64,000 nucleotides of DNA from Bryobacterales bacterium (GTDB taxonomy: Bacteria; Acidobacteriota; Terriglobia; Bryobacterales; Bryobacteraceae), in NCBI GenBank assembly GCA_003167255.1, contig PMTR01000140.1, positions 1 to 64,000 of the forward strand, in the 5' to 3' direction. Positions within the stretch are counted from its first letter, which is position 1. Each line of letters starts with the position of its first letter. A model generated the notes under the pieces. The model did not search any database. It was not told the origin of the DNA and was given only the letters and a program-made list of their open reading frames with translations. Of the stretch, positions 22,765 through 38,464 are shown one piece after another. A program made the position numbers and the translations under genes.

Positions 22765-25251
22765 TTGAGTCCAAGGGAGGGCGCTACGGCCAGGGGTCCG
22801 AAGAATCTGCAAGCCACCGGCGCGTGGCGCGCTATCGAAGCGGAATTCCAGGCGACAGGCCAATCGTCCGCAGTGCAGAACGCCCTGACGCTGGCTAGGG
22901 ATGAGGCGGTCGTCGAGGCGTACCGGGCGGCGATCGAACCGTCCTTCCCACGGTCCGTGGCGATGCTGGCCGGCGGCGCTTACGGGCGGGGCCAAACGTT
23001 TCCCTACTCCGAGTTGGACATCGTGCTCCTTGTCGAAACGGGAAGGCAGCCGGACGCACTCAAGGAACTGCTGCCCGAGTTCGTCCGCCTGCTTTGGAAC
23101 GCGGGTTTGCGGCCGAACTCCGCGGTGCTCACGGTGGCTGAGTGCCTGGAAGCCGTGGAGCGGGGAAGCGTGTCCGGATTCATCCTGTTGGACCGGCGGC
23201 TTCTGGCGGGAGACCGCGTGGTGCATGAGAACCTCGAAAGCAAACTGCCGGCCGCGCTGGCGCTGCACGGCCAGAAGATGAGCCAGCACCTTTGTCAATT
23301 GGCGCACGCGCGTCATGCCCGGTACCAGAATACGCCCCAACACGCGGAGCCGGATGTGAAAGAGGGCCCTGGTGGTTTCGAGGACGTGCGCCTCATGGAT
23401 TGGCTCGCAATCCTCAAAACGGAGCACGAAGCGCCAGGCGGCGAACTGAGCAACGCGGCGGCGTTGGTTTCGTCGGCACGCTGCTTTTTGCATTACCGTG
23501 CCGGATGCGACCACAACATTCTGGATTCTGAAGCGCAGCAGAGCTTGCCGCGGCAGGCCTTCACGCGCGGCAAGTCTTCATCCGACTGGATGCGCGAGTA
23601 TTTCCAATCCGCGCGCTCGATTTTCAACGAGGCGCGCCGGGCGATCGAGGGAGCCGAGAGGAGCCAGAGTTCGCTGCTGGAGAACTTCCGCGAGTACCGC
23701 TCCCGGCTTTCGAACCAGGAGTTCACGGTTTCGCGCGAGCGGCTGCTTTTGCGCAACCCGACGCAACTCGCAAGCGATCCGGCGCTGGCATTCCGGATGC
23801 TCGAGTTCATCGGCCGCCACGGTGTTGCGCCGGCTCCGGAAACGGAGCGGAGGCTGGAAGCGTCGCGTGAGGCTTTAATGGCCTGCTGGGCCCAACCGCA
23901 ACCGCTCTGGGGCGCGCTCAGGACCGTCCTGGGGTGCCCGCAGGCAGCCATGGCGCTACGCACGCTGGAGACCACCGGTCTGATGCGGGGGCTGTTTCCC
24001 GAGTGGGGCGCCATCGAACATCTGGTAGCGGCCGACTCGGAGTACCGCTATACCGTAGGCGAGCATGCGCTGCGGACCGTCGAATGCGTGATCGAATTGG
24101 GCTCGTCCGGCAACCCGGAGCGGCAGCGATTCGCGGGGTTGCTCTCCGAGGTCGATGACGTGACGCTCCTTCTATTCGCGCTGCTCTTTCACGAGATGGG
24201 GCGGGGCGGCGCCGATCCATGGGGGCTCGCGGCGGAGCGGGCGCGCCAAGCCATGGAGCGTATTCAGATGCCGGATGACGCGCGGAGCACCGTGCAATTT
24301 CTGATCCGCCATCAGTCCGATCTTTCCGGCGCGGTGAGCGGACGCGACATGGACGACCCGGCGACGGTACGCCTGCTGGCGGAGCGCGTGGGCACCATCG
24401 AGCGGCTGAAGGTTCTGCTGGTCATGACTTTCGCCAGGATCGCGGCCCTCGGCCCGGAGGACAAGATTCCGTGGCGTTTGGAGCAATTGTGGCGCGCGTA
24501 TAGCGCCGCCCGGCATGAACTGATGCGCGAACTGGAGACCGATCGCATCCGGCAGGTGCCCGAGGACCTTCCCGGCAACGCGGAGTTCATCAAGGGATTT
24601 CCATTGCGATACCTGCGGGCACACTCTTCGGCGGAGATTGCCGGACATCTCCAACTCTTCGAGCTTAGCCGGCCGGCCGGGGTGGCCGTAAGGCTGGACC
24701 CGCTGGAAGGGGCATACCGGCTTACGATTGTGGCGCGGGATAAGCCGTTTCTGTTTGCATCGTTTGCCGGGGCGATTTCCAGTTTCGGCATGGACATTCT
24801 GAAAGCCGAAGCCTTCTCGAATGCAGCCGGGGTGGTCCTGGATATGTTCGTTTTCGCCGATCCGAAGCGCATGCTCCAGCAAAACCCGGGCGAAGCGGAT
24901 CGGCTGAGCGACCTGATCCAGCGCATCGCGCTCGGCAAGACGGACGCGCAGAGGTTAATGCGAGGCCGCGGGCTGCCGGACGCGGGCAAGCGGGCTACCC
25001 CTCCGCAAGTGCAGTTCGATTCCGAAGCGTGCCCGACGGCGACACTCGTGGAGATCGAAACGGAAGATCGGCCTGGACTGCTGTATAGCCTGGCAACCGT
25101 GTTCTCGTCGAACGCGTGCAATATCGACGTGGTGCTGGTCGACACCAAGGGCCACCGCGCCATCGATGTGTTCTATGTGGCGCACGAGGGGCGGAAGCTG
25201 TCGCCGGACGCGCAAGAGAGTCTGAAGGAAAAGATTCTGGCGGCGTGCTGA
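22765..25251 (+). CDS. GlnD-like protein (PII uridylyltransferase family) with altered active sites
   Basis: This 828-residue protein has the GlnD domain order: nucleotidyltransferase (about 60-180), a GlnD-specific helical domain, an HD domain (about 425-530) and two ACT domains (about 650-828). GlnD senses glutamine and modifies PII proteins. The NT motif reads GGAYGRGQTFPYSELDIVLL, with Glu where the first metal Asp (S-D-x-D) is expected. The HD motif reads LLFHEMGRGGADPW, with Glu for Asp and no later His. Both activities may be changed or lost, while the ACT domains look intact. Start is TTG 22765 after GGAGGA. No glnB/glnK is adjacent, though an ammonium transporter and glutamine synthetase lie about 20 kb away. 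Confidence 0.8.
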   Translation: MSPREGATARGPKNLQATGAWRAIEAEFQATGQSSAVQNALTLARDEAVVEAYRAAIEPSFPRSVAMLAGGAYGRGQTFPYSELDIVLLVETGRQPDALKELLPEFVRLLWNAGLRPNSAVLTVAECLEAVERGSVSGFILLDRRLLAGDRVVHENLESKLPAALALHGQKMSQHLCQLAHARHARYQNTPQHAEPDVKEGPGGFEDVRLMDWLAILKTEHEAPGGELSNAAALVSSARCFLHYRAGCDHNILDSEAQQSLPRQAFTRGKSSSDWMREYFQSARSIFNEARRAIEGAERSQSSLLENFREYRSRLSNQEFTVSRERLLLRNPTQLASDPALAFRMLEFIGRHGVAPAPETERRLEASREALMACWAQPQPLWGALRTVLGCPQAAMALRTLETTGLMRGLFPEWGAIEHLVAADSEYRYTVGEHALRTVECVIELGSSGNPERQRFAGLLSEVDDVTLLLFALLFHEMGRGGADPWGLAAERARQAMERIQMPDDARSTVQFLIRHQSDLSGAVSGRDMDDPATVRLLAERVGTIERLKVLLVMTFARIAALGPEDKIPWRLEQLWRAYSAARHELMRELETDRIRQVPEDLPGNAEFIKGFPLRYLRAHSSAEIAGHLQLFELSRPAGVAVRLDPLEGAYRLTIVARDKPFLFASFAGAISSFGMDILKAEAFSNAAGVVLDMFVFADPKRMLQQNPGEADRLSDLIQRIALGKTDAQRLMRGRGLPDAGKRATPPQVQFDSEACPTATLVEIETEDRPGLLYSLATVFSSNACNIDVVLVDTKGHRAIDVFYVAHEGRKLSPDAQESLKEKILAAC

Positions 25252-25271: not shown

Positions 25272-25619
25272 TCAGGCGGCCGCGGCATCCTCACTCTGTG
25301 CGGCCATCAAGCTCTCGGCGGGAATCTCCTGCAGGTAGCCGTGTGCCGTGGCGTACTCCACCCACCCGCGCAGTAACTGCCGTACCCGCCGGGGGGTTAT
25401 ACCGTATCGGTCCGCAAGTTGCTCACACGTCCATCCTTGCACAAAATACAGGGTCACCACCCGCCATTGAATTTTCACGCTGTACTGCCGCGGGAAGCTT
25501 GGAACTTGCGCGGGGAAACTGACCTCGCGGTTCCGGATGGCCTGTCGCAGCCGCGCGAGCCTTTCCTGCGCCATGGAGCCGCCGGCGCAAACCAATGCGG
25601 CGTGAACTTCAATTCTCAT
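25272..25619 (-). CDS. Small helix-turn-helix protein
   Basis: The 115-residue protein contains a helix-turn-helix, GWTCEQLADRYGITPRRVRQ, resembling the recognition helices of sigma factors or recombinases. I do not recognise a named family. The ATG at 25619 would be almost at the transcription start if the -10 at 25627-25632 is used, giving a leaderless mRNA. The ATG at 25574 (MAQERLARLRQAI) is the alternative. It is divergent from the VWA-kinase-regulator genes across a shared, symmetrically arranged promoter region, so it may be part of that circuit. Confidence 0.65.
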   Translation of the reverse strand: MRIEVHAALVCAGGSMAQERLARLRQAIRNREVSFPAQVPSFPRQYSVKIQWRVVTLYFVQGWTCEQLADRYGITPRRVRQLLRGWVEYATAHGYLQEIPAESLMAAQSEDAAAA

Positions 25620-25626
25620 ATGGCAG

Positions 25627-25659
25627 AGTCTAGCGGGAAAGTCGTGAAAAAGTCATGAA
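25627..25659 (-). promoter_or_regulatory. Predicted PhoB/OmpR-type operator-promoter, site 1
   Basis: On the minus strand, TTCATG (25659-25654) and TTCACG (25648-25643) are 11 bp apart, each followed by ACTTT. Ten bases later comes TAGACT (25632-25627), a -10-like hexamer. It faces the HTH gene. This repeat-plus-spacing pattern recurs at four other sites in the window. Confidence 0.7.
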
Positions 25660-25686
25660 CGCCGGAACAACGTGCGCTCGATTTCT

Positions 25687-25719
25687 TTCATGCCTTTTTC
25701 ACGGCGGATCGGGTAATGT
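25687..25719 (+). promoter_or_regulatory. Predicted PhoB/OmpR-type operator-promoter, site 2
   Basis: TTCATG (25687-25692), CCTTT, TTCACG (25698-25703), then 10 bases to TAATGT (25714-25719). It points at the VWA-kinase-regulator genes. Back to back with site 1, with 27 bases between them, it forms a divergent control region. The predicted start near 25726 supports the ATG at 25756 for the downstream gene. Confidence 0.7.
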
Positions 25720-25755
25720 AAGGATGACTTGGTTCGCTTTCGAAGAGACACTAAG

Positions 25756-26709
25756 ATGTCACACTGGATTCACAAGACAGTGCGCCTGGAACGGCCGGCG
25801 GCGGTGCTGTCCGCTGTTGCGGCCTTTTCGGCCTGCCTGCTGCCAGCCAGCGCACAGGCTTTGCAGGTTCTTGCCCAACCGCAATTCCGCGCGGACACGA
25901 ATCTCATCCTGGTTCCCGTTACAGTGACGGATGGCCGGGGATCCAACATTAAAGGACTGGATGCGGAGAGTTTCACCGTGCTGGATGACCGCCGGCCGCA
26001 ACCCATCGTGGCACTCTACTCGGAGGACGCGCCGTCTTCCATTGGAATCGTCCTGGATGTCAGTGGAAGCACCAGGGCCATATTGGACCAGGAGAAGGCC
26101 GCGGTGCGCGCCTTCCTGCAGTTCTCCAATCCGGAGGACGACTTCTTCCTGGCCACCGTTTCCTCGAATCCCCAAGTGCTTGCCGATCGTGTGAACGATC
26201 CGGGCGAGATCGAGGACCTCCTGCAATGGGAAAGAGCGGGAGGGGGAACAGCCCTCTGCGACACCGTCTACTTCGCCTTGCATCAGGCGCGGTTACGCCC
26301 CCACTCTCGCCGCGCGTTGCTGGTCATCTCGGACGGCATGGACAATTACAGCCGTTATACGAGGCAGGAGCTGATGCGCGAGGTGGTGGAGAGCGACACC
26401 CAGATCTATACCATCGCTCTCAATAATCCCCCCGTCGGGACGAAAGGAGCGGCAATGACCGAGATCCAGCGCGGGCTGGCGTTTATGGACGACCTCGCCG
26501 AAAAGAGCGGCGGTGTGAGCGTCCGCCTGAGAAGCCATGAAGATCCTTCCGCCGCAGCCTCCAGAATATCCGCCGCTATTCGAAATCAGTATGTCATCGG
26601 GTACCAAAGCCCAGACGGCGGTCGGCGAGAACAGTGGCACAGAATTCAAATCAAGGTCAATCTGCAGAAAGCCAATGTATACGCGCGCAGTGGATACCAG
26701 TTGCCATAG
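25756..26709 (+). CDS. VWFA-related Acidobacterial-type exported protein
   Basis: This 317-residue exported VWA protein has a signal sequence ending near LLPASAQA. An N-terminal β-domain contains LILVPVTVTDGRG and FTVLDDRRPQPIVALYS. The VWA domain has the metal site GIVLDVSGSTRAIL (DxSxS) and VISDGMDNYSRYT, and the C-terminus has IRNQYVIGYQSPDGG. It belongs to the same family as the protein at 9798-10781. It lies first in a probable operon with the sensor kinase and response regulator, so it may be a periplasmic partner of the kinase; that is inference. A TTG at 25729 is an alternative start. Confidence 0.85.
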   Translation: MSHWIHKTVRLERPAAVLSAVAAFSACLLPASAQALQVLAQPQFRADTNLILVPVTVTDGRGSNIKGLDAESFTVLDDRRPQPIVALYSEDAPSSIGIVLDVSGSTRAILDQEKAAVRAFLQFSNPEDDFFLATVSSNPQVLADRVNDPGEIEDLLQWERAGGGTALCDTVYFALHQARLRPHSRRALLVISDGMDNYSRYTRQELMREVVESDTQIYTIALNNPPVGTKGAAMTEIQRGLAFMDDLAEKSGGVSVRLRSHEDPSAAASRISAAIRNQYVIGYQSPDGGRREQWHRIQIKVNLQKANVYARSGYQLP

Positions 26710-26786
26710 GGCGGCCTCCACCCGGGCCCCCGCGCATTACGTGGGGCCGCATTTGCTCTTCGGCCACAGCGTCTACAATAAAGCTA

Positions 26787-28280
26787 GTGTTGTCCCGGCG
26801 TTGGACTTCGCAGAGCCGCTTCCGGCGCTCCGCTTGGCTTTTGTTCCGCGGCGCCCTGTTGACCGGCGCAGTCACGGCGATCGGCTACCGGTTTGGTTTC
26901 AACTCGGCATCGGCGGCGTTGCTGTACCTGGTTGCGGTGGTACTCCAGTCGCTGGACTGCGGCTTTCTGGAAGCGGCTATCATCTCGCTGCTGGCTACCT
27001 CCGCCCTGGATTACTTCTTCATCGAACCGCGCTTCACCTTCAACGTGACGGATCCCCTGGATGCCGTCACTTTGGCGGGCCTGCTGGTGGTCTCGCTGGT
27101 CATCACGAGGATCCAGGTCAGGAGCCGCGCTCAAGCCGGTGAGTCGCGCCTGCAGCGCAATAGTATGGAATCGCTTTATAGGGTCGGTCAGGAACTGCTC
27201 GCGCTGGCGCCGGCGGCCGTCGCCGGGCCCGCGCTGCTGGACCCGTTCGTCTCGGTATTTGAGCTTTCCGCGGTCTGCCTGTTTGACGCCACCACTCTGG
27301 AATGCCATATCTCGGGCCGCTCGCAAGGGGACCTGGAGGCCAAAACACGCAACGCGTTCGTCTTGGGCCAGGACGCGGTCTATCCGGAAGTCAAGATTGT
27401 AGTCCGCTGCCTTCGGGCAAGCAACGCGGTTTCCGGCGCCATCGGCTTCGAGGGTCTTCGCGACCCGGAGCTTACGGCGCCCGCCCTGGCGGCGCTGGCA
27501 GCCGCGGCACTTCAAAGGGCTCGGGCTTTCCGGACGGCTACAGCGGCCGCCGCGCACGCCCAGGCTGAAATGCTTCGCTCGGCCATACTCGACGGGCTGG
27601 CCCATGAATTCAAGACTCCGCTCGCCACGATTCTCACGGCGGCGGGCGGCCTGCGCGCTGCCGGCTCGATGCAGCCGCAACAGGCCGAACTGGCTGAGAT
27701 GATCGAAGTCGAAGCGTCCCGCCTCGGCGATCTGACCTCCCGCTTACTTCGCCTCGCACGCCTGGACCGCGAGGAGGTAAAGCCGCGCCTGGAGAAGACC
27801 GACGCGGTTGAACTTGCCGAGATGTCGGCCAAACGGTATTCGAAGATCTGGCCGAACCGGCGAATCCGCTTCCGCACGCGGGGAGGCAACTCCGAAGTCC
27901 GCGTCGATCCGGAACTGATCGGCCTGGCCCTCAGCCAGTTGCTGGAGAACGCCTGCCGGTATTCGGAGGCGGACTCGCTGGTGCTGATCGAGTTCGCGGA
28001 GGAGGATCACATGGCGGCCGTTACCGTCTGGAACGATGGCCCCCCCATTCCCGCGAATGAGCGCGATCGCATTTTCGACCGGTTTTACCGTGGCGCCGCC
28101 GCGCGGACGGCTGCGCCCGGCTCGGGCCTCGGCCTTTTCGTCGCACGCAAGATTGTGCTGGCCCACGGGGGGAATCTGAGCCTGGTTGACCCTGGCGCAA
28201 ACGGGACGAGTGGAGTCGGCTTCCGGTTGACGGTCCCGATTTCGATCAATGAGGACCCCCATGGCTTCCGGGAAGGCTAA
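26787..28280 (+). CDS. Sensor histidine kinase with DUF4118 (KdpD-like) membrane domain
   Basis: This membrane sensor kinase of about 497 residues autophosphorylates and feeds the response regulator that overlaps its 3' end. N-terminal helices (ALLYLVAVVLQSLDCGF, AVTLAGLLVVSLVITRI) form a DUF4118 domain as in KdpD. A GAF-like region follows (about 125-250), then the phosphoacceptor box LAHEFKTPLATIL, and an ATPase domain with LLENACRYSE, FDRFYRG and GSGLGLFVARKI. The KdpD N-terminal sensor and Usp domains are absent, and no kdpFABC is nearby, so the signal is probably not potassium. The start is uncertain: I use GTG 26787, with TTG 26790 close by. Confidence 0.85.
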   Translation: MLSRRWTSQSRFRRSAWLLFRGALLTGAVTAIGYRFGFNSASAALLYLVAVVLQSLDCGFLEAAIISLLATSALDYFFIEPRFTFNVTDPLDAVTLAGLLVVSLVITRIQVRSRAQAGESRLQRNSMESLYRVGQELLALAPAAVAGPALLDPFVSVFELSAVCLFDATTLECHISGRSQGDLEAKTRNAFVLGQDAVYPEVKIVVRCLRASNAVSGAIGFEGLRDPELTAPALAALAAAALQRARAFRTATAAAAHAQAEMLRSAILDGLAHEFKTPLATILTAAGGLRAAGSMQPQQAELAEMIEVEASRLGDLTSRLLRLARLDREEVKPRLEKTDAVELAEMSAKRYSKIWPNRRIRFRTRGGNSEVRVDPELIGLALSQLLENACRYSEADSLVLIEFAEEDHMAAVTVWNDGPPIPANERDRIFDRFYRGAAARTAAPGSGLGLFVARKIVLAHGGNLSLVDPGANGTSGVGFRLTVPISINEDPHGFREG

Positions 28281-28992
28281 GGTCCTGATCGTCGACGACG
28301 AGCCCGCGTTGCGAAAGGCGCTGCACACGTCGCTCTCGGCCAGCGGATTCGACGTCTCGGAAGCCCGCAATGGCGGCGAAGCGCTCGCCACCCTGCCTCG
28401 CGCACCCGTGGATATCGTCCTGTTGGATATAAACATGCCCGGCATGAGCGGCATCGAAGTGTGTCGCAAGATCCGCGAGCTTTCCATCCACATGGGCATC
28501 ATGATGGTCACAGTCCGCGATTCCGAAGACGACAAGGTGCGGGCGCTCGAAGCCGGCGCCGACGACTTCATCACCAAACCGTACCGGCTTCGCGAGATGA
28601 TTGCGCGACTGCACGCCATGCTGCGCCGCATGAGCGCGCAGCAAGACAACCCCGACGCCGTTCTCACCGCCGGAGCCCTGGAGTTGGATCCGAAGCGCCG
28701 GCTGGTGACCAAGAATGGCGTCGAGATTCACCTCTCCCCCAAGGAGTTCGAGCTGTTGGCCTATCTGTTCCAGCACCAGGGCGCGCCCGTAATGCACGCC
28801 AGATTGCTGCAAGCCGTGTGGGGACCCGAGTTCGGCGGCGAGCTCGAATACCTCCGCTCTTACGTCAGGATGCTCCGGAAGAAGATCGAAACCGACCCCG
28901 CGCGGCCGGAGTACCTGCTCACAGAACCGTGGGTGGGCTACCGCTTCCGCAACCCCTCCGATCCCGAGTCCTCGGCTGCCGGCGACGAGTAA
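28261..28992 (+). CDS. OmpR/PhoB-family response regulator (KdpE-like)
   Basis: The 243-residue regulator has a receiver domain (acidic pocket VLIVDDEP, phosphoacceptor Asp in IVLLDINMPGMSG, Lys in FITKPYRL) and a C-terminal winged helix (LSPKEFELLAYLFQHQG, SYVRMLRKKIE). The ATG at 28261 has GAGGA 5 nt upstream and lies inside the kinase gene, overlapping it by 20 bases, so the two are co-translated. Proteins of this class bind head-to-tail repeats about 11 bp apart, exactly the pattern found at five sites here, including the one ahead of its own operon. I infer autoregulation. Confidence 0.9.
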   Translation: MASGKAKVLIVDDEPALRKALHTSLSASGFDVSEARNGGEALATLPRAPVDIVLLDINMPGMSGIEVCRKIRELSIHMGIMMVTVRDSEDDKVRALEAGADDFITKPYRLREMIARLHAMLRRMSAQQDNPDAVLTAGALELDPKRRLVTKNGVEIHLSPKEFELLAYLFQHQGAPVMHARLLQAVWGPEFGGELEYLRSYVRMLRKKIETDPARPEYLLTEPWVGYRFRNPSDPESSAAGDE

Positions 28993-29076
28993 CGTGCCGG
29001 CGTGGTTGTAAGCGCCAACATCTGCTGGAGTAGCTGACGAGCCTGCAACGGATGGTCATGGACCAATAATGAAATC

Positions 29077-29120
29077 CTTATGCTTTACTTACGGCTTCCT
29101 TAGTCCTCTCACTTTACACT
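29077..29120 (+). promoter_or_regulatory. Predicted PhoB/OmpR-type operator-promoter, site 4 (distal)
   Basis: CTTATG (29077), CTTACG (29088) and CTTAGT (29099-29104) are spaced by 11 bp. After 10 bases comes TACACT (29115-29120). It lies in the 334-base gap between the regulator and the porin, which otherwise shows no convincing gene. It would be an upstream second promoter for the porin/efflux operon. Confidence 0.6.
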
Positions 29121-29216
29121 GACAGTTGCATGGTGAGCACCGGGACGTTTTGTGGCCGATCGTTCGACCACGGCATACCCAGAGTTATGGTCTGCATAGA
29201 AAGTATCGATCAACCG

Positions 29217-29249
29217 TTCATGGCTTTTTCATGGGTAGCACCTCACAAT
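29217..29249 (+). promoter_or_regulatory. Predicted PhoB/OmpR-type operator-promoter, site 3 (proximal)
   Basis: TTCATG (29217-29222), GCTTT, TTCATG (29228-29233), then 10 bases to CACAAT (29244-29249). The start of transcription would be near 29256, giving a leader of about 70 nt before the porin ATG at 29327. Confidence 0.68.
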
Positions 29250-29326
29250 CGAACGAAGCTCGCGCATCGGTCGCGGCGGTCGGACTCGACCCGGTTCTTA
29301 TTCGCTTCTGAGAAAGGAAGACAGGA

Positions 29327-31264
29327 ATGATAAACATCTACCGACACACCGGGTGCCTCTTGATTCTAAGCGTAGCGCTGGCACTTGTACCGTCATCGGC
29401 CCGCGCTGGCGAGGCGGCTGGTCCGGGGTTCGGCGCCCTTCGCGGAGTCACGCTTGACGCTGGCGGACAGCCCTTGGCGATGGTACGGGTCGCAATACAC
29501 AGCACGGATGGCAGCACCGACCACCAGGTGTTCAGCGATGCCGATGGAGTGTTCGCCGCCGATCATCTGACACCTGGGTCCTATCTGATCACCGCGACCA
29601 AGGAGGGGCTGATCAGTCCGCCCGCCACGGCGGTGGAGGTCGCGCAAAACCAAACGGCTCGTCCCAGCCTGGTGCTTGCCACAGTTGAGCCCGCACCCGC
29701 AGCAACACTTGCGCCCGCCGCGCTTGAAAAGGAACTTGAGGCCATGAAAGAGCGCATTGCGGTGCTGGAGGCGGCGCTGAAGGCTCGCACAGCCGCGGAA
29801 CCGCCATCCGCAACGGCGGCGCCCTCCGCAAAAGCAGCCGAAACGGCGCCGGCGGCCCCACCCGCCCCGCCACAACCCGCACCCGCTCCTCAGGCCGCGC
29901 CGGCCATACCGGAAGCGCTGCAGGCCCCGGACTCCACTCCCGGCGTGGACAATTTCACGCCGTTTGCGTACGGGGACTTTACCTGGCTCAATGGGACTCC
30001 CCGCAATAAGGACACCGTGCTGGATACGAAGTTCTTCACCCCGGAGATCCGGTTCGATACCCACTTTATGGAGGATTTCAACCAACCCAAAGACCACTCC
30101 ATGGGCGGCTCCACCGAATCGTTCCGCTCCGGCGAATTCCAGTTGGAGCAGGTCAGCGTGGGCGGCGACTTCCACTGGCAAAACGTGCGCGGCAGAATCC
30201 TGACCATGTTTGGGATGTTTGCCACCACGACGCCGCGGAACGATGCCAGCGCGGGTGTGGGCCAATGGGACCTCCGCGACGCCTATCGCTACATATCGGA
30301 AGCCTGGGGCGGCTATCACTTCAATGTGAACCACGGGCTGAACGTGGACGCTGGAATCTTCGTGTCGTACATCGGCCTGTTCAGCTACTACAATTATGAT
30401 AACTGGACTTATCAACCGTCGTTCGTGTCTTCTAATACGCCATGGTTCTTCAACGGCTTGCGGATCCAGTGGTTTCCCACGAATAAGTTGAAGATCGAAC
30501 CCTGGATCATCAACGGCTGGCAGTCTTACGCCAAATTCAATGGACACCGCGGTTTGGGAGGGCAGATTCTATACCGTCCGCATGAGTGGCTGTCACTGGT
30601 CTTCAATAACTACGGCAACGGCACCGATACCTTGGGTAACCCGGGCCGCTCGCGCATCCATACAGACGACAGCGTCGAGGTCAGGTACTTCAATAAGCCG
30701 GACAATGGCAGCGGCATCTCCAAAATGGCGTTTTCCTTTACGGCCGATGCAGGATGCGAATATGGCGGCGGGGTGACCTGCCATGGCGGTAAGGCCGGAC
30801 CTAAGCAGGCTTTCCTCGGTTGGATGGTCTACAACCGGATTTGGTGGAACAAGGACAAATATGCGATCACGCTCGGCGGCGGCATGATGACCAATCCGGG
30901 CCGGTATCTGACCCTGCTCCCGCCAATCAATGGAGCGGATGCGGTCTCCGGTTCTCCGTACTTCACGGCGAACCCGGGCGACAAGGCCCACATGTGGGAC
31001 ACCACCGCGACTTTCCATTGGATGCCCAAGCAGTATATTACTTGGTGGTTCGAGGGCGGCTATCGCCATTCGGATGTGCCGTATTGGTCGGGGCGAGGTG
31101 GGATAACGCCTCCCGGCGGAAACAACGGCTTCCCCAGTCAATTCGTCTGCAATGATGGCTCGCCGTCCCTGACCTCCACCGGTTGCGGCTCGGTCGGTCT
31201 CTGGACTCCGGATCTGCGCCACGGCCAGGCGGTGATCGCCGCGGGCGTCATGGTGAAATTCTAA
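29327..31264 (+). CDS. Outer-membrane porin of the bbp2/OmpL-like type with carboxypeptidase-regulatory-like domain
   Basis: The 645-residue outer-membrane protein has a signal peptide ending near SSARA. A carboxypeptidase-regulatory-like β-sandwich follows (about 35-115: GQPLAMVRVAIHSTDG, LTPGSYLITATKEG). A coiled coil (about 140-165) and a Pro/Ala-rich linker lead to a β-barrel (about 215-645) ending in MVKF, a classic C-terminal Phe signal for BAM insertion. Barrel strands such as FTPEIRFDTHFMEDFNQP fit the OmpL-like porin-2 family. AAAGGAAG-type sequence precedes the ATG. Two predicted operator-promoters lie upstream, and the RND efflux genes follow, so it may form an outer-membrane pore co-expressed with efflux. 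Confidence 0.78.
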   Translation: MINIYRHTGCLLILSVALALVPSSARAGEAAGPGFGALRGVTLDAGGQPLAMVRVAIHSTDGSTDHQVFSDADGVFAADHLTPGSYLITATKEGLISPPATAVEVAQNQTARPSLVLATVEPAPAATLAPAALEKELEAMKERIAVLEAALKARTAAEPPSATAAPSAKAAETAPAAPPAPPQPAPAPQAAPAIPEALQAPDSTPGVDNFTPFAYGDFTWLNGTPRNKDTVLDTKFFTPEIRFDTHFMEDFNQPKDHSMGGSTESFRSGEFQLEQVSVGGDFHWQNVRGRILTMFGMFATTTPRNDASAGVGQWDLRDAYRYISEAWGGYHFNVNHGLNVDAGIFVSYIGLFSYYNYDNWTYQPSFVSSNTPWFFNGLRIQWFPTNKLKIEPWIINGWQSYAKFNGHRGLGGQILYRPHEWLSLVFNNYGNGTDTLGNPGRSRIHTDDSVEVRYFNKPDNGSGISKMAFSFTADAGCEYGGGVTCHGGKAGPKQAFLGWMVYNRIWWNKDKYAITLGGGMMTNPGRYLTLLPPINGADAVSGSPYFTANPGDKAHMWDTTATFHWMPKQYITWWFEGGYRHSDVPYWSGRGGITPPGGNNGFPSQFVCNDGSPSLTSTGCGSVGLWTPDLRHGQAVIAAGVMVKF

Positions 31265-31273
31265 GACTTATTT

Positions 31274-31330
31274 ACCGCAGAGGCGCGGAGACGCGGAGGA
31301 AGGTATTGAAATTCTCTGCGTCTCTGCGGT
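31274..31330. repeat. Inverted repeat of the ACCGCAGAG type
   Basis: 18-base arms (31274-31291, 31313-31330) pair with two G-T pairs around a 21-nt loop; the right arm reads TCTCTGCGTCTCTGCGGT. Strings like this recur between genes in many bacterial phyla. It sits between the porin and the RND adaptor gene and may attenuate transcription between them. Confidence 0.8.
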
Positions 31331-31365
31331 GAACTTCCTGTTGACTTACCCGGACCAAGGTACTT

Positions 31366-32502
31366 ATGAAAGGCAACTGTTTTGCGCTGGTTCTGCTTTC
31401 CGCTTCACTCGCGGCGCTTTGCGGCTGTAGCCGGGTGCGCGCGGACCAGGCGGCGGAGGATCCACCGCCCGCTAAGGTCTCTCAGGCTGTGGACATCAGC
31501 CTCTTCGCGGTGGATCACCCGGAGCAGTTTCCGCTGGCCACGGCGACCGAGCATGCGACGACTTCCGAGTTGGTCGTCACGGGGGTACTCACTCCCGACG
31601 TCTCGCGCAACGTCCCCGTGGTTTCGCTGGCCTCCGGGCGCGTCATGGCCATTCACTCGCGACTCGGCGACACGGTGCAAAAAGGCCAGTTGCTGCTGAC
31701 CATTCGAAGCGACGACGTCTCGGGCGGCTATTCCAACTACCGAAAGGCCCTCGCGGATGAGGCTCTTATCCGGACTCAATTGGAGCGCTCCAAGGATTTG
31801 TACGCCCATGGCGCTATTGCCCTGAACGATCTCCAAGTTGCGCAAGACACTGAGGACAAGGCCAGGGTGGACGTGGAAACCATGTCCGAGCATCTCCGGT
31901 TGCTGGGCAACGACCCCGATAAGCCGACTGGCATGGTGGATATCTTCGCGCCAGTCTCGGGAGTGATCACCGACCAGCAAGTGACCAACGCATCGGCCGT
32001 GCAAGCGTTTAACACCCCGAGCCCGTTCACGATTTCCGATCTCTCGTCCGTCTGGGTTGTCTGCGACGTGTACGAAAATGACCTGGCCAACGTCCGGCTG
32101 GGCGATACCGCAGAGATCCGCCTGAATGCCTATCCCGACCGCATGTTCAAGGGAAGGGTGAGCAACATTGGCGCGACACTCGATCCGAACATCCGCACGG
32201 CCAAGGTTCGGATGGAAGTTCAGAATCCGGGAATCATGCGGCTGGGCATGTTCGTGAAGGCCACCTTCCACGGTCAAACCAAGGAGATGCACACCATTGT
32301 CCCGGCAACCGCCGTGCTGCACATGCACGACCGCGACTTTGTCTTCGTTCCCGCACCCGACAAGAAGTTTCGCCGCGTGGAAGTCGTCAGTGGAGATCTC
32401 TTGCCGGACGACCTGAACCTGCAAGAGATCAGGTCGGGGCTGAAACCAGGCCAACAAGTGGTTACCAACGCGCTGGTCTTAGACCACGTGCTCACTCAGT
32501 GA
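31366..32502 (+). CDS. RND efflux periplasmic adaptor (CusB/CzcB family lipoprotein)
   Basis: The 378-residue membrane-fusion protein links the inner-membrane RND pump to the outer-membrane channel. The N-terminal signal ends in a lipobox, LCGC. A barrel-sandwich hybrid shows NVPVVSLASGRVMAIHSRLG and VDIFAPVSGVITDQQV, flanking a helical hairpin (about 110-175). A β-barrel and membrane-proximal domain follow (LSSVWVVCDVYENDLANV, LGMFVKATFHG). This arrangement is typical of the heavy-metal-efflux subclass. No Met- or His-rich metal-binding tail is seen. It is the first gene of the pump operon. Confidence 0.9.
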   Translation: MKGNCFALVLLSASLAALCGCSRVRADQAAEDPPPAKVSQAVDISLFAVDHPEQFPLATATEHATTSELVVTGVLTPDVSRNVPVVSLASGRVMAIHSRLGDTVQKGQLLLTIRSDDVSGGYSNYRKALADEALIRTQLERSKDLYAHGAIALNDLQVAQDTEDKARVDVETMSEHLRLLGNDPDKPTGMVDIFAPVSGVITDQQVTNASAVQAFNTPSPFTISDLSSVWVVCDVYENDLANVRLGDTAEIRLNAYPDRMFKGRVSNIGATLDPNIRTAKVRMEVQNPGIMRLGMFVKATFHGQTKEMHTIVPATAVLHMHDRDFVFVPAPDKKFRRVEVVSGDLLPDDLNLQEIRSGLKPGQQVVTNALVLDHVLTQ

Positions 32503-32544
32503 TGGTAGTCCGGACGTTTAGGGCGACAAAACGGGAAACAGGAA

Positions 32545-35500
32545 ATGATCCGCGCTCTTGTAGACTTTTCGCTTAACAACAGGTTTGTGGTGTTGGCCAT
32601 CGCCGTCTTGTTGCTCGGTTGGGGGGCTGTCTCGTTTCATAACCTGCCGGTGGAGGCGTATCCCGATATCGCCGACAATTACGTGACCGTCATTACCCAA
32701 TGGCCGGGACGTTCCGCCGAAGAAGTGGAACAGCAGGTTACGATTCCGGTCGAAATTCAAATGAACGGAATTCCGCATCTTACCTATCTGCGGTCCGAGT
32801 CCATTTTCGGCCTGTCCTTCGTGATCATGATTTTCGACGACAGTTCGGTGAACGACTGGAACCGGCAGAAGGTGCTCGAACGGCTAACGCAGGTCTCTCT
32901 GCCTACAGGCCTCCAGCCTCAAATCGGCACGGATTGGAGCACGGTGGGCCAGATCTATTGGTACACGGTAAGAAGCACAAATCCCCAGTACGACCTGATG
33001 GAACTGCGCTCCATCGAAGACTGGACGCTCCTCAAGGAGTTCAAGTCGGTTCCCAACGTGGTGGATGTTTCCGATTTCGGCGGCACGGTGCGAGAGTACC
33101 AGGTGCGCGTGGATCCGAACAAGCTGGTGTCGTATGGATTAAGCATCGGTCAAGTGGAGCAGCAGCTTTCCAATAACAACATCAATGCCGGCGGCAGCTT
33201 CGTCGAGATCGGCATGCAGCAGATGAACGTTCGCACGCTGGGACTCTTTGGCAACGTGCGTGACATCGAAGATACCGTCCTGAAAACCCAGACCGGGACC
33301 GCCCTTCGGGTAAAGGACATAGCGGAAGTGACTCAGGGCCCGAAGATCCGCCTGGGCCATATGGCCCGAGCCAACCACATGGAGGATGGGCGCATCGTCG
33401 ACGAACCCGACGTGATCCAGGGCATCGTGCTGATGCGCAAGGGTGCGGAAGAGGAACCGACGCTCGCGGCAATTCACAAGAAGGTGGAGCAGCTCAACAA
33501 CGGCATCCTGCCCCCGGGAGTGAAGGTCGTACCCATGTTGGACCGCAGCGATCTGCTGCATTTCACCTTGCACACGGTGATGCACAACCTGGTCGAAGGC
33601 ATGATCCTGGTCAGCGTCATCCTTTTCCTGTTTCTTCTGAACGCCCGTGCGGCTCTCATTGTAGCGCTCACGATTCCGTTCTCTCTGCTCTTCGCATCGA
33701 TCTTTCTTGATTTGAGCCACATTCCGGCTAATCTTCTCTCCCTGGGCGCGCTGGATTTCGGAATGGTGGTGGATGGCGCGGTGGTCATGCTGGAAAACAT
33801 CATGCGCCACTTGAGCCACCGCGGCGGGCGTAATTCCGCTGGCCCCGCAAAAACCACCGGGGAAATCATCCGCCAGGCGTGCCACGAAGTGCAACGGCCG
33901 GTTTTTTACGCTATTGCCATCATCATCACGGCGTACATGCCTATCTTCACGCTGCAACGTGTGGAGGGGCGGTTGTTTCGGCCCATGGCCTGGACAGTAG
34001 CCTTTGCCCTTCTCGGCGCGATGACTTTTTCCATTCTCATCGCACCTGTGCTGGCAGCCACATTCTTCCCCAGGGGAGTTCGGGAGCGGCGGAACCGGGT
34101 GATGGATTATCTGACGGAGCGCTATCGGCGGCGGTTACGCTGGGCCGTTCATCATCGTTGGGTGGTCGCCGGCGTTGCGCTCATTTCCCTGGCGGGGACG
34201 ATCTATCTGGGCTTTGGCGGCGTGATTGGCGCGGAATTCCTGCCGCACCTGGACGAAGGCGCGATCTGGGCGCGTGGCACTTTGGCAAACAGCACAAGTC
34301 TTTCGGAGGGGGAAAAATTCACCACCAACGAGCGCTATGTCTTTACGTCTTTCCCGGAAGTGAGTAAGGTCGTATCGGAAGTCGGCCGGCCCGACGATGG
34401 AACCGACACCGGAGGATTCGGCAACACGGAGTATTTCGTCGACTTGAAGCCGAAGGAGGAGTGGAGGCCGGTCTTTCATCGAAACAAGGAAGAACTGATC
34501 GCGGCCATGAATCGTGCGGTGGGGAAGTATCCGGGAGCGATCTGGAACTTCTCACAGCCAATCGAGGACAACGTCGGAGAGACGCTTACCGGCACGAAGG
34601 GCCAACTCGCGCTCAAGGTGTTCGGCAGTGATCTGAAGACTCTGGAGCAGAAGGGCGAAGAAGTGAGTACGGTCATGGCGGCCGTACCCGGCCTGCGTGA
34701 CGTCAAGCTATTGCGCGATTTCGGCCAGCCGAATCTCGATTTGACGGTGGACCGCCGCCAAGCTGCCCGTTTTGGAATCAACGTGGCAGACATACAAGAC
34801 GCAATCCAGACGGCGGTGGGCGGCAACGCGGTGAGTCAAGTGCTGATCGGCGAGCAGCGGTATGACGTGGCGGTGCGCTATCAGGCGCCCTATCGCAATA
34901 CCGCCAGGGCCATCGAAAGCGTTCGCCTGGTTTCTCCTACGGGAGAGAGGGTGTCTCTAGCACAGTTGACCAAGGTCGCAGTCAAGGATGGCGCATACGA
35001 CATTTACCGGGAAGGCAACACCCGCTACGTGGCGGTCACTTTCAGCGTTAGGGGCCGGGACCTGGGGACCACGGTCGAAGACGCCATCAAGCGAATTAAT
35101 CAAAGGGTCAAGTTGCCACCGGGCTATCGCGTCGAGTGGTCGGGCGAATACGAGAGTCAAAAGCGGGCTGAAGCGCGGCTGGCTGTGGTGGTCCCGTTGA
35201 CCATCCTGGTCATCTTCATCATTCTTTACACCATGTTTCGCTCCTACAAATGGGCGCTGCTGATCCTGTTGAACGTCGGGTTGGCGCGCATCGGAGGCCT
35301 GCTGGCCCTTTTGGTTACGGGAACCTACCTGAGCGTTTCCTCGGGCGTCGGTATGTTAGCGCTATTTGGCGTCTCGGTGCAGACCGGTGTCATCATGGTC
35401 GAGTACATTAACCAGCTCAGGGCGAGGGGCCACTCGGTCGTCGATTCCGCCGTCGAAGGCGCGGTCCTTAGACTTCGTCCGATCATGATGACCATGCTCG

Positions 35501-35700
35501 TGGCAACTCTTGGACTGCTGCCGGCGGCGCTCTCGCACGAGATCGGCTCCGATTCGCAGCGGCCTTTCGCAATTGTTATCGTAGGCGGCCTGATTTCCGA
35601 TCTGCTGCTGAGCATTGTTCTGTTGCCCACTTTTTATGCCTGGATCGCGCGGGACGGCGATCAACTTCCCGCCCCGGAGGGTTCTTTCGAGGGTTTATGA
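32545..35700 (+). CDS. HME-type RND efflux transporter (CzcA/CusA family)
   Basis: The 1051-residue proton-driven inner-membrane pump belongs to the heavy-metal-efflux RND subclass. N-terminal MIRALVDFSLNNRFVVLAI and the periplasmic WPGRSAEEVEQQVTIPVE are typical. The proton relay of CzcA-type pumps is present in TM4 as LDFGMVVDGAVVMLEN, with both Asp and the Glu conserved. Around residue 575 the text reads GAIWARGTLANS instead of the Met-bearing segment of CusA, so copper/silver transport is less likely than divalent cations or another substrate. It ends in an ATGA overlap with the TolC-like gene. Confidence 0.92.
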   Translation: MIRALVDFSLNNRFVVLAIAVLLLGWGAVSFHNLPVEAYPDIADNYVTVITQWPGRSAEEVEQQVTIPVEIQMNGIPHLTYLRSESIFGLSFVIMIFDDSSVNDWNRQKVLERLTQVSLPTGLQPQIGTDWSTVGQIYWYTVRSTNPQYDLMELRSIEDWTLLKEFKSVPNVVDVSDFGGTVREYQVRVDPNKLVSYGLSIGQVEQQLSNNNINAGGSFVEIGMQQMNVRTLGLFGNVRDIEDTVLKTQTGTALRVKDIAEVTQGPKIRLGHMARANHMEDGRIVDEPDVIQGIVLMRKGAEEEPTLAAIHKKVEQLNNGILPPGVKVVPMLDRSDLLHFTLHTVMHNLVEGMILVSVILFLFLLNARAALIVALTIPFSLLFASIFLDLSHIPANLLSLGALDFGMVVDGAVVMLENIMRHLSHRGGRNSAGPAKTTGEIIRQACHEVQRPVFYAIAIIITAYMPIFTLQRVEGRLFRPMAWTVAFALLGAMTFSILIAPVLAATFFPRGVRERRNRVMDYLTERYRRRLRWAVHHRWVVAGVALISLAGTIYLGFGGVIGAEFLPHLDEGAIWARGTLANSTSLSEGEKFTTNERYVFTSFPEVSKVVSEVGRPDDGTDTGGFGNTEYFVDLKPKEEWRPVFHRNKEELIAAMNRAVGKYPGAIWNFSQPIEDNVGETLTGTKGQLALKVFGSDLKTLEQKGEEVSTVMAAVPGLRDVKLLRDFGQPNLDLTVDRRQAARFGINVADIQDAIQTAVGGNAVSQVLIGEQRYDVAVRYQAPYRNTARAIESVRLVSPTGERVSLAQLTKVAVKDGAYDIYREGNTRYVAVTFSVRGRDLGTTVEDAIKRINQRVKLPPGYRVEWSGEYESQKRAEARLAVVVPLTILVIFIILYTMFRSYKWALLILLNVGLARIGGLLALLVTGTYLSVSSGVGMLALFGVSVQTGVIMVEYINQLRARGHSVVDSAVEGAVLRLRPIMMTMLVATLGLLPAALSHEIGSDSQRPFAIVIVGGLISDLLLSIVLLPTFYAWIARDGDQLPAPEGSFEGL

Positions 35701-36977
35701 GAAACACCCGGATTATTTTGATGGCCGCCAGCGTGTGCGGCAGCCTGGTGTTGGTGGATTCGGCGTGCGCGCAGCAGGGACCTGTCACGGTCACGCTCGA
35801 TCAAGCCATCCAAATGGCGCTCCAGCACAACCACACCTTGCAAGCCGCCCGGACCGCCATCCAACAGGACCAGGCCGCGGAAATTACCGCCAATCTGCGC
35901 CCGAATCCGACATTCTTCACCGACTGGGAATACCTGCCGGTTTTCACGCGCCAGCAAGGCACGTCCACGGCCGACTACCTCCAGAACTCGACCGAGGGCG
36001 ACATGGGGTTGAGTTACCTGATTGAACGCGGCAACAAGCGGGCGCGCCGCTTAGAAGCCGCGAAGAGCGCAACCGCCGTGACGCGCTCGCAGGTGGCCGA
36101 TAACGAGCGCGGTACTACGTTTCAGGTTGGCTCTCTATTCATCAATGCCCAGCTTGCGGAGTCGACCCTCGATCTCGCGCAACGGGACCTGAAAAGCTTT
36201 CAGGAAACGGTCGACATCGGCGAAATTCGATTCAAGGATGGCGGCATGAGCGAGAACGACTACCTGAAGATCAAGCTCCAGTTGCTGCAATTTCAAACCG
36301 ACGTCCAACAAGCGTTGCTCAACAGGACCCAGGCGCTGTCTGACCTCCGTCAACAATTGGGTTACGAGTCGGTGCCCGCCGGGTACGACGTCGTGGGCGA
36401 ATTCGAATACAAGCCGCTCGTGGTCACGCTCGACGAATTGCAGGTGAAGGCCGTTCAGAATCGTCCGGATCTGCGCGCGGCGGTGCTGGGGGTTACCGCC
36501 GCCAATAATCAATATGCGCTCGCTAAGGCCAATGGGAAGCGGGATCCCACCATCTCGGCCAATTACTCGCACGTCAACGGTATCAGTACCGCCACCTGGG
36601 CGTTCAGTATTCCGCTGGCGATTTTCGACCGGAACCAGGGCAACATCGCGCAGACACGCATTGCCATCCGGCAAGCGGAGGAGCAGCAGAAAGCAGCCAA
36701 CGGGCAAGTACTGACGGACGTGAAAGACGCGTACGAGGGCCTGCAGGAAAGCGCGCAAGTAGCCCAGCTCCTGAAATCCACCTATCTCGATGTGGCCCAA
36801 AGGAGCCGCGACATCAGCGAATACGCCTACCGGCGTGGCGCCCTGGCGCTCCTCGATTTCCTGGACGCCGAGCGGACGTATCGCGCGACGCAACTCGCCT
36901 ACCGCCAGGCGGTGGCGGCTTACTTAACTACATTGGAGCAACTTCGCCAGGCGGTGGGAACGAGGGACCTGCTTTGA
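35697..36977 (+). CDS. TolC-family outer-membrane efflux protein
   Basis: The 426-residue outer-membrane factor completes the tripartite pump. After the signal peptide (ending near DSACAQ) the sequence has two long-helix repeats typical of TolC/CzcC: VTLDQAIQMALQHNHTLQAA at the first and VTLDELQVKAVQNRPDLRAA at the second, with ALLDFLDAERTYRATQLAYR near the C-terminus. It begins inside the stop of the RND gene (ATGA), so translation is coupled. Overall gene order adaptor-pump-channel is complete. Confidence 0.9.
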   Translation: MRNTRIILMAASVCGSLVLVDSACAQQGPVTVTLDQAIQMALQHNHTLQAARTAIQQDQAAEITANLRPNPTFFTDWEYLPVFTRQQGTSTADYLQNSTEGDMGLSYLIERGNKRARRLEAAKSATAVTRSQVADNERGTTFQVGSLFINAQLAESTLDLAQRDLKSFQETVDIGEIRFKDGGMSENDYLKIKLQLLQFQTDVQQALLNRTQALSDLRQQLGYESVPAGYDVVGEFEYKPLVVTLDELQVKAVQNRPDLRAAVLGVTAANNQYALAKANGKRDPTISANYSHVNGISTATWAFSIPLAIFDRNQGNIAQTRIAIRQAEEQQKAANGQVLTDVKDAYEGLQESAQVAQLLKSTYLDVAQRSRDISEYAYRRGALALLDFLDAERTYRATQLAYRQAVAAYLTTLEQLRQAVGTRDLL

Positions 36978-37025
36978 TCCCGGTCCTGGCGCCCGTTTGC
37001 CACACCGTTGTCCCAGGATGATCTT

Positions 37026-37691
37026 ATGACAAGAGAAGAGATTCGCGCGCGCATTATAGAGATCGGAATCATCCCGGCGATACGCGTGTCTACCGCCGAG
37101 GACGCCCTGTTTGCCGCGGAAGCGGTCTGCGAGGGCGGCATCCCCATTGTCGAAGTGACCATGAGCGTCCCGGGGGCCATCGACGTCATTCGGGAACTGA
37201 CGCGTCAGAATACCGGGATTGTAGTGGGCGCCGGCACGTTATTTCACGTGGAAACGGCACGCCGCTGCCTGGATGCCGGCGCGGCCTTCCTGACCACGCC
37301 GGGACTCGATCTTGAGATCGTCAATTTTGCGCTGGGGCGCGGGGTGGTGGTCTTTCCGGGTGCCTTGACGCCCACCGAGGTTGCGGCCGCCTGGAAGGCT
37401 GGTTCCGACTTCGTGAAGGTCTTCCCGTGCTTTGCGAACGGCGGCCCCGCCTACATCCAGGCTCTCAAGGGGCCCTTCTCGGAAGTCCCCCTGATTGCTA
37501 CCGGTGGTGTGAATCAAATGAACGCCATGGATTTCATTCGGGCGGGGGCCGTGGCGCTGGGCATCGGGCGGGACTTGATTCACCAGGATGCGATCAAGCG
37601 CCGCGAGCGGGGCTGGATCACCGAACTGGCGCGGAGGTACACGAAGATAGTGGCCGACGCGCGCAGAATACAAAAGGAGGCGGGCGTATGA
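37026..37691 (+). CDS. KDPG/KHG aldolase family protein
   Basis: The 221-residue class I aldolase is of the 2-dehydro-3-deoxy-phosphogluconate type, which splits KDPG to pyruvate and glyceraldehyde-3-phosphate. Visible residues are the Glu in IPIVEVTMSVPGA, the Schiff-base Lys in DFVKVFPCF, and the phosphate loop PLIATGGVNQMNAMDFI. I chose ATG 37026 (AGGA 7 nt upstream) over a TTG at 37008. It lies 48 nt after the TolC gene and its stop overlaps the next start, so it seems to be in the efflux operon, an odd place for a sugar-acid enzyme. The true substrate may differ. Confidence 0.88.
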   Translation: MTREEIRARIIEIGIIPAIRVSTAEDALFAAEAVCEGGIPIVEVTMSVPGAIDVIRELTRQNTGIVVGAGTLFHVETARRCLDAGAAFLTTPGLDLEIVNFALGRGVVVFPGALTPTEVAAAWKAGSDFVKVFPCFANGGPAYIQALKGPFSEVPLIATGGVNQMNAMDFIRAGAVALGIGRDLIHQDAIKRRERGWITELARRYTKIVADARRIQKEAGV

Positions 37692-38464
37692 CACGCACAC
37701 TGGCCGCGGTCTTATTCGGGTTAGGCGTGATGGCTGCGTCGCTCCCACTGTTAGCGGCGGATGGACTCCAGGAGAAAGCGCCCAACCAGTCATTTGCGGT
37801 AACCAGCACGGAGCGGGTGAACTTCCCGCCAGGCGGCACTATTCGTCTGGAGAATTCGTATGGCTATTTGACGGTGGAAGGTTGGGACGAACCGGAAGTG
37901 GAAATCACCGTCACCAAGTCGACGGATCGTTTCTACGAACCCGGGCGGAAGGAGCAGGCCGGGAAAGCTCTCGAACAGATCCGTGTGGTCACCGAACGGC
38001 GCTCCGATAAGGAACTGGCGATTTCGACGACGCTCCCCGACCGCCATGGCTTCCCCAGTTCCATTCTTCCTTCGGGCCGCATCATCGTCACCATGCCGAA
38101 GAAGAACAGACTCGGCGTCACGATTGATTACACGGTCCATGTGCCGCGCGACTCTCACCTGGTGGTTCATCACGACAACGGCTATGTATGGGTAAGCGAC
38201 GTGACCGGCGACATCGAAGTGAATAGCCACACTGGCGACATGATCGTGATGCTGCCGGATCCGGGTCCATTCTCGATCGACGCAAGAACCCGAATGGGCA
38301 GCGTCTCTTCCGATTTCGCGGGCAACGGGCACAAGCAATTCCTGGTTGGTACTCAATTCGTACACGCGAGTCAGGCTCCGTCACGGCGGATCCATTTGCG
38401 CATGGGTCGCGGAAGCATCACGATCAAGAACGGCCCGCCATCCGGTTCTTTCCGGAAAAACTGA
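37688..38464 (+). CDS. Exported DUF4097-like β-helical protein
   Basis: The 258-residue exported protein has a signal peptide (MTRTLAAVLFGLGVMAASL). The body resembles DUF4097/putative adhesin domains: FPPGGTIRLENSYGYLTVEG, IIVTMPKKNRLGVTIDYTVH, and repeated short strands (HHDNGYVWVSDVTGDIEVNS, HTGDMIVM). It has no enzyme motif. It starts in the aldolase stop codon (ATGA). As last gene of the unit controlled by sites 3/4, it may be a periplasmic or surface partner in envelope stress; function is not known. Confidence 0.75.
   Translation: MTRTLAAVLFGLGVMAASLPLLAADGLQEKAPNQSFAVTSTERVNFPPGGTIRLENSYGYLTVEGWDEPEVEITVTKSTDRFYEPGRKEQAGKALEQIRVVTERRSDKELAISTTLPDRHGFPSSILPSGRIIVTMPKKNRLGVTIDYTVHVPRDSHLVVHHDNGYVWVSDVTGDIEVNSHTGDMIVMLPDPGPFSIDARTRMGSVSSDFAGNGHKQFLVGTQFVHASQAPSRRIHLRMGRGSITIKNGPPSGSFRKN

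Follow-up and report, generated by a model that had tools for sequence, protein, structure and literature searches.

Whether neighbouring genes for a signalling pair, an outer-membrane porin and a tripartite efflux pump form one regulatory unit, and from where its control would derive, is the question raised by positions 25272-38464 of a 64,000-nucleotide stretch of a Bryobacterales genome (7.35 Mb in 200 contigs), namely positions 1-64000 of contig PMTR01000140.1 of assembly GCA_003167255.1, hereafter the window (G000:C47:1-64000). The original prediction listed ten genes there, all of which were found at the positions it gave (Table 1), and took them for a single regulatory module with a shared operator, a view upheld by strand, gene coupling and the presence of the operator at three promoters. 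A small helix-turn-helix (HTH) gene diverges from three consecutive forward-strand genes encoding a VWA protein, a sensor histidine kinase and a response regulator, where the kinase and regulator genes overlap; further along the same strand, the genes for a BBP2 porin, a periplasmic adaptor (MFP), an HME-RND pump, an outer-membrane efflux channel (OMF), an aldolase and a DUF4097-like protein follow one another, with overlaps between RND and OMF genes (35697-35700) and between the last two (37688-37691). Taken as a whole, the locus is probably a self-contained two-component circuit, which arose from a duplicated Kdp-type system and governs three promoters, including that of the porin-pump operon. 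DUF4118 kinases, KdpD/KdpE and HME-RND pumps are already known; what is new is a Kdp-type two-component variant apparently re-aimed at an operator of its own and at a porin-pump operon.

The operator, whose sequence the original prediction did not give, is a 17-bp direct repeat, TTCAYG-N5-TTCAYG, i.e., two half-sites with an 11-bp period. Throughout the 7.35-Mb genome, five matches are found at one mismatch at most, only three of which are perfect, all at the module promoters, with none for the reversed control; as the sole perfect matches of the genome, these sites make the circuit look private to three promoters. Matches with up to two mismatches averaged 0.35 in shuffled windows and never reached three in 100 shuffles. 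The relatives that the kinase search brought up bear the names Bryobacterales, Bryobacteraceae, Terriglobia or Acidobacteria; most are metagenome-assembled and several come from bog, fen or palsa. Genes of relatives were called by a simple script, which took the longest open frames with a weight for G+C by codon position, and were named via BLAST to the window proteins, so that start positions there, and some of the small genes, should be taken as approximate. For the relatives, the operator pattern TTYATGNCTTTTTCAYG was used, which was selected after viewing part of the same loci. It yielded 131 non-redundant operator-like sites, 98 of which lie upstream of module-type genes, and [TC]ANNNT stands exactly at +10 in 63 of these 98, whereas no other offset between 0 and 34 has more than six; since the -10 hexamer was not included in the pattern, this spacing is independent of the pattern choice. 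Operator-like sites with at most two mismatches numbered 45 in 335 kb of module loci, partly picked by their neighbouring genes, versus one in 400 kb of control loci. Downstream of the -10 hexamer, start codons show a moderate enrichment at 4-8 nt and some messages, including that of the window HTH gene, may therefore be leaderless. In the PhoB model, the activator box covers the -35 region (PMC3348028), and the geometry of the module operator fits such an activated promoter: the window regulator would bind the two half-sites, 11 bp apart, in place of a -35 element and 10 nt upstream of the -10 hexamer, activating rather than repressing. Short as it is, the operator provides a means to find the targets of such a circuit in uncultured soil bacteria.

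Regarding its origin, the kinase carries DUF4118, HisKA and HATPase_c domains; the N-terminal KdpD (PF02702) and Usp domains are absent from it in the domain scan, nor do they stand in an adjacent gene, and the curated KdpD equivalog is not reached (147 bits, cut-off 1123). The combination of a VWA protein with a kinase devoid of KdpD domains had been put forward as unusual; the domains are indeed missing, but their absence is not peculiar because KdpD is split in this lineage, where the canonical Kdp locus of the same genome (contig C23, L036) comprises kdpABC, a DUF4118 kinase equally without KdpD and Usp domains, a regulator and two separate PF02702 genes. A loss unique to the window kinase was accordingly rejected. 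In a tree of 101 kinase rows, a module clade of 47 (SH-aLRT 99) separates from a related clade of 52 with the kdpABC-linked kinases (SH-aLRT 97), L053_6 and L130_8 being among the few exceptions; the tree was built by a quick method, was midpoint-rooted for drawing only and has a long branch for E. coli KdpD.

The resemblance extends to the DNA. Upstream of canonical kdpA, TTTATGmCTTCyTTATG (two mismatches at most) occurs in 16 of 28 regions, with none for the reversed control, and most of these sites are followed at +10 by a -10-like hexamer, e.g., TTTACGACTTCTTTATG, 10 nt, then TACTGT at the kdp promoter of the same genome. The half-sites of E. coli KdpE, TTTATA-N5-TTTACA (PMC3264566), have the same geometry as those of the module, i.e., direct repeats of 6 bp separated by 5 bp, and the window regulator, OmpR/PhoB-type like KdpE, keeps its DNA-contact residues R193, R200 and T215. 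On the contrary, the module half-site is TTCAYG instead of TTTAYG or TTTATA, the recognition helix reads YLRSYVRMLRKKIE versus YLRVFVNQLRKKIE in the Kdp regulator of the same genome, and the apparent target is a porin-RND operon rather than kdpFABC, the operon that KdpD/KdpE controls upon K+ limitation. Most regulators of the core module group read YLR[ST]Y in this helix, most Kdp regulators YLR[VA]F, and most of a second module group YLRTF. A separate kinase clade, a sister kdp operator and a differing helix together therefore point to the duplication and rewiring of a Kdp-type two-component system. We read this as a duplication of KdpDE in which base 3 of the half-site and the recognition helix changed together, the two changes being presumably linked causally. 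As such, the locus would illustrate, in nature, how a two-component system parts from its parent after duplication, here by an operator change (TTTAYG to TTCAYG) and a recognition-helix change; the steps of specificity divergence are directly testable because both versions sit in one genome.

Conservation of the gene order in relatives had been proposed as a check on the module, and the association proved to be kept, though reshuffled, in many genera of the Bryobacterales-type family, so that the case in which no relative shares the arrangement does not arise. Kinase-seeded loci split at an identity gap (at least 42% vs 35% or less) into 23 of module type and 50 others, and the former are enriched in BBP2 (13 vs 2), operator (14 vs 4), HTH (8 vs 0), VWA (8 vs 1) and RND (6 vs 2), with Fisher p from 1e-6 to 0.01, whereas canonical kdpB is found in none of the 23 but in 18 of the 50. 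In the VWA search, the best matches, from about 216 bits up, separate from a numerous and common set scoring about 195 bits or less, with few between. In most loci of this top group, the neighbours include kinase, regulator, HTH, porin or pump genes, the order of which changes from locus to locus; several loci show no such neighbours (L050, L054, L057, L060, L062 and L063), and the lower matches, at about 205 bits and below, are mostly without a module around (L064, L066-L074). The closest counterpart, G415 (L044), presents nearly the same set in a different order, with regulator-kinase-VWA on one strand, HTH-porin-MFP-RND-OMF-aldolase on the other and operators at the same three promoters with 0 or 1 mismatch; the stretch ends after the aldolase gene. 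The latter comes immediately after that of the OMF in L044, L075, L077, L080, L085, L105 and L109. A 0-mismatch operator search across the class returned single sites only beyond the own genome, and the six examined (L038-L043) had no porin, pump, VWA or HTH genes.

In the circuit so delineated, the DUF4118 membrane kinase would respond to membrane, ionic or osmotic change and phosphorylate the regulator, which would in turn activate its own unit with VWA and kinase, closing a positive feedback loop, along with the small HTH gene and the operon of porin, HME-RND pump and aldolase. Because of the Kdp ancestry, an ionic or osmotic signal is at least as likely as metal or envelope stress. The VWA protein, with a VWA fold and an N-terminus that looks like a signal peptide by inspection, has its own operator in about 16 loci, even where the module kinase is not seen nearby (L062, L063), and is therefore probably a regulator target, i.e., an exported output of the circuit; found near the kinase in 8 of the 23 kinase-seeded loci, it is not obligatory for it. 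It may nonetheless feed back on the kinase in the manner of CpxP, a small exported protein that is a regulator target and acts on the kinase CpxA (PMC4755656), from which the window protein differs in being of VWA/MIDAS type. A family named after Acidobacteria and of unknown function would thereby be linked to a signalling circuit. In the part of the literature covered by our search, DUF4118 and Acidobacteria were not joined, and the full name of the VWA family was not used. The HTH protein matches Sigma70_r4 (32 bits, cut-off 24.1) and its gene is conserved beside module genes (33-48% identity over the alignment); its AlphaFold2 model is helical (pLDDT 72), and a fold search of the PDB gave no significant match (best E 0.13).

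Several observations weigh against this circuit as drawn. RND pumps are near just six of the 23 module-type loci, and porin-pump genes lack a recognised operator in several genomes (L027, L076, L078), so that pump and switch are separable; a genome of the same genus, G299 (82% complete), keeps the porin-pump-aldolase operon, and no kinase of the module clade was found there. The -10 hexamer of the porin promoter, CACAAT, is weak by E. coli standard, CA-type hexamers being nonetheless common in the motif set. Finally, the direction of the duplication depends on a tree whose E. coli row is long-branched.

The strongest competitor, a serious candidate if not quite a probable one, is that of a second Kdp system, which would still sense potassium or turgor with the porin-pump operon as one ionic-stress output, and which overlaps the rewired circuit inasmuch as the latter leaves the signal open. 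Both kinase and operator are Kdp-type, and divergent KdpC'/KdpA' genes with module-like operators nearby lie near module kinases (L098:187-1165; L106:987-3333 and L222:12767-15113, these last two on the same contig), as do genes with KdpD-N similarity in L100 and L163. Likewise, the porin-pump operon of G299 has a Kdp-type site, TTTACGAGTTCCTAATG, 10 nt ahead of TACACT, an arrangement (two mismatches at most, -10 at +10) expected by chance about 0.006 times per 450 bases; noticed after the fact and in a genome 82% complete, it is no more than a hint, even when G478 (L083), which resembles it, is added. A further trace of the link to Kdp is a module-type site (one mismatch at most) in the canonical kdp upstream region of four loci (L134, L161, L201, L208). 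Yet the window module holds no K+ transporter gene, with kdpABC adjoining the module in G415 (L044) as an exception among relatives, canonical kdpB is missing from all 23 module-type loci, and both the operator and the recognition helix have moved away from those of Kdp.

That the VWA protein would be the primary periplasmic sensor, its MIDAS binding a divalent metal or an envelope ligand and switching the kinase so that the module is a metal-sensing efflux response, appears unlikely. Its gene directly precedes that of the kinase in one unit in the window, the MIDAS residues (D101, S103, S105, T165, D193) are invariant in 16 orthologues, no large periplasmic domain is evident in the kinase and ZneA, a zinc pump, is the closest match to the pump; however, most kinase-seeded loci are without VWA, and an operator of its own where such a kinase is not near suits an output better. 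The module does resemble the metal-responsive CusSR and CzcSR systems in that a two-component system adjoins, and apparently controls, an HME-RND tripartite pump, but the kinase is Kdp-type with a DUF4118 membrane domain and, with 130.8 bits, stays well short of the cut-off of the heavy-metal sensor model (292.55), upon which a CusS-type sensor was rejected. Less likely still is a bolder scheme, where a Kdp-type kinase would have recruited the exported VWA/MIDAS protein, whose production it controls itself, to sense cations in the periplasm and the sigma-4-like HTH protein would serve as co-activator where the operator replaces the -35 element, the whole making a dedicated ion-to-efflux circuit for which we met no earlier description. 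As for chance neighbours with a coincidental repeat in a genome that has many VWA and efflux genes, TIGR03436-type proteins are frequent, with a match in nearly all genomes of the family; the uniqueness of the operator in the genome, the density of sites in module versus control loci, the conserved -10 spacing, the recurrence in many genera and the contrast with loci of Kdp-type kinases make this explanation so improbable that it was rejected.

Table 1. Genes, operators and predicted -10 hexamers of the module (window positions).
Feature	Position	Strand	Basis or remark
Small HTH protein, 115 aa, sigma-70 region 4-like	25272-25619	-	Pfam Sigma70_r4
-10 hexamer TAGACT of the HTH promoter (predicted)	25627-25632	-	10 nt from operator, 7 nt from ATG
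HTH-gene operator TTCATGACTTTTTCACG	25643-25659	-	
Operator of the VWA-kinase-regulator unit TTCATGCCTTTTTCACG	25687-25703	+	
-10 hexamer TAATGT of the VWA-unit promoter (predicted)	25714-25719	+	10 nt past operator
VWA protein, acidobact_VWFA family TIGR03436, exported	25756-26709	+	TIGR03436, 171.7 bits vs cut-off 81.25
Sensor histidine kinase, DUF4118-HisKA-HATPase	26787-28280	+	Domain scan, orthologue alignment, tree
Response regulator, OmpR/PhoB-type, KdpE-like	28249-28992	+	Domain scans, regulator alignment
Operator of the porin-pump operon TTCATGGCTTTTTCATG	29217-29233	+	
-10 hexamer CACAAT of the porin promoter (predicted)	29244-29249	+	10 nt past operator
BBP2 outer-membrane porin, N-terminal carboxypeptidase-regulatory-like domain	29327-31264	+	Pfam BBP2, 118.7 bits; CarboxypepD_reg, 47 bits
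RND periplasmic adaptor (MFP), CusB/CzcB-like	31366-32502	+	Domain scans
HME-RND pump, CusA/CzcA family	32545-35700	+	TIGR00914, 936.3 bits vs cut-off 701.45
Outer-membrane efflux channel (OMF), OEP/TolC type	35697-36977	+	Domain scan
KDPG/KHG aldolase	37008-37691	+	TIGR01182, 186.9 bits vs cut-off 156.05
DUF4097-like protein, GTG start, operon end	37688-38464	+	Homology

Among these products, the pump has ZneA (4k0e) as its best solved match, with 799.6 bits versus 576 bits for CusA, and in the alignment shares with it a DFG-x3-VDG stretch followed by EN, of which DFG-x3-VDG is not found in CusA; a divalent-metal substrate is plausible, and the window operon departs from ZneA in holding a BBP2 porin and an aldolase. 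By inspection, the porin contains a coiled-coil-like stretch. Inspection and alignment place the kinase start at a likely GTG at 26787 rather than at the mechanical start of its open reading frame (26634-28280). The name DUF4097 given to the last gene is weak since it relies on homologues, one of which (L027:18206-18889) matches DUF4097 with 17.4 bits, below the cut-off of 22.9; the window copy was scanned only inside a longer open reading frame, where it had no Pfam match. Just upstream of the module, a large open reading frame (22765-25251, forward strand) resembles, by its translation, a GlnD-type uridylyltransferase and shows no sign of membership.

Around module genes of the relatives, some further observations were made. 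The KdpC'-KdpA' genes of L098 and L106/L222 have no neighbouring KdpB'. A 700-aa protein (L100:5372-7471, reverse strand), whose gene has a module kinase gene and a VWA gene in its vicinity, joins the KdpD sensor domain PF02702 to CBS and to an MgtE divalent-cation transporter domain, and the L163 gene with KdpD-N similarity (L163:10368-12470) is of the same length. The G299 operon (L075, G299:C46) keeps porin-MFP-RND-OMF-aldolase with a pump 92% identical, regulatory genes not being nearby. Two response-regulator-like genes near module genes (L045:6067-6771 and L025:1364-2044, both reverse strand) have a detectable DNA-binding domain and no detectable receiver domain, the former with a perfect operator upstream. 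One contig (G320:C55, L024/L025) carries three kinase-regulator pairs of the module kind in about 11 kb, two of them in tandem. A family of about 242 aa without Pfam match (L024:14394-15131, reverse strand, and homologues), not among the ten window genes, is often found beside the BBP2 porin. In the named strain Edaphobacter modestus DSM 18101 (L118:9891-13916), which might serve as a laboratory model, a related kinase, a regulator and a BBP2-type porin occur together, with Kdp-like sites upstream of the kinase.

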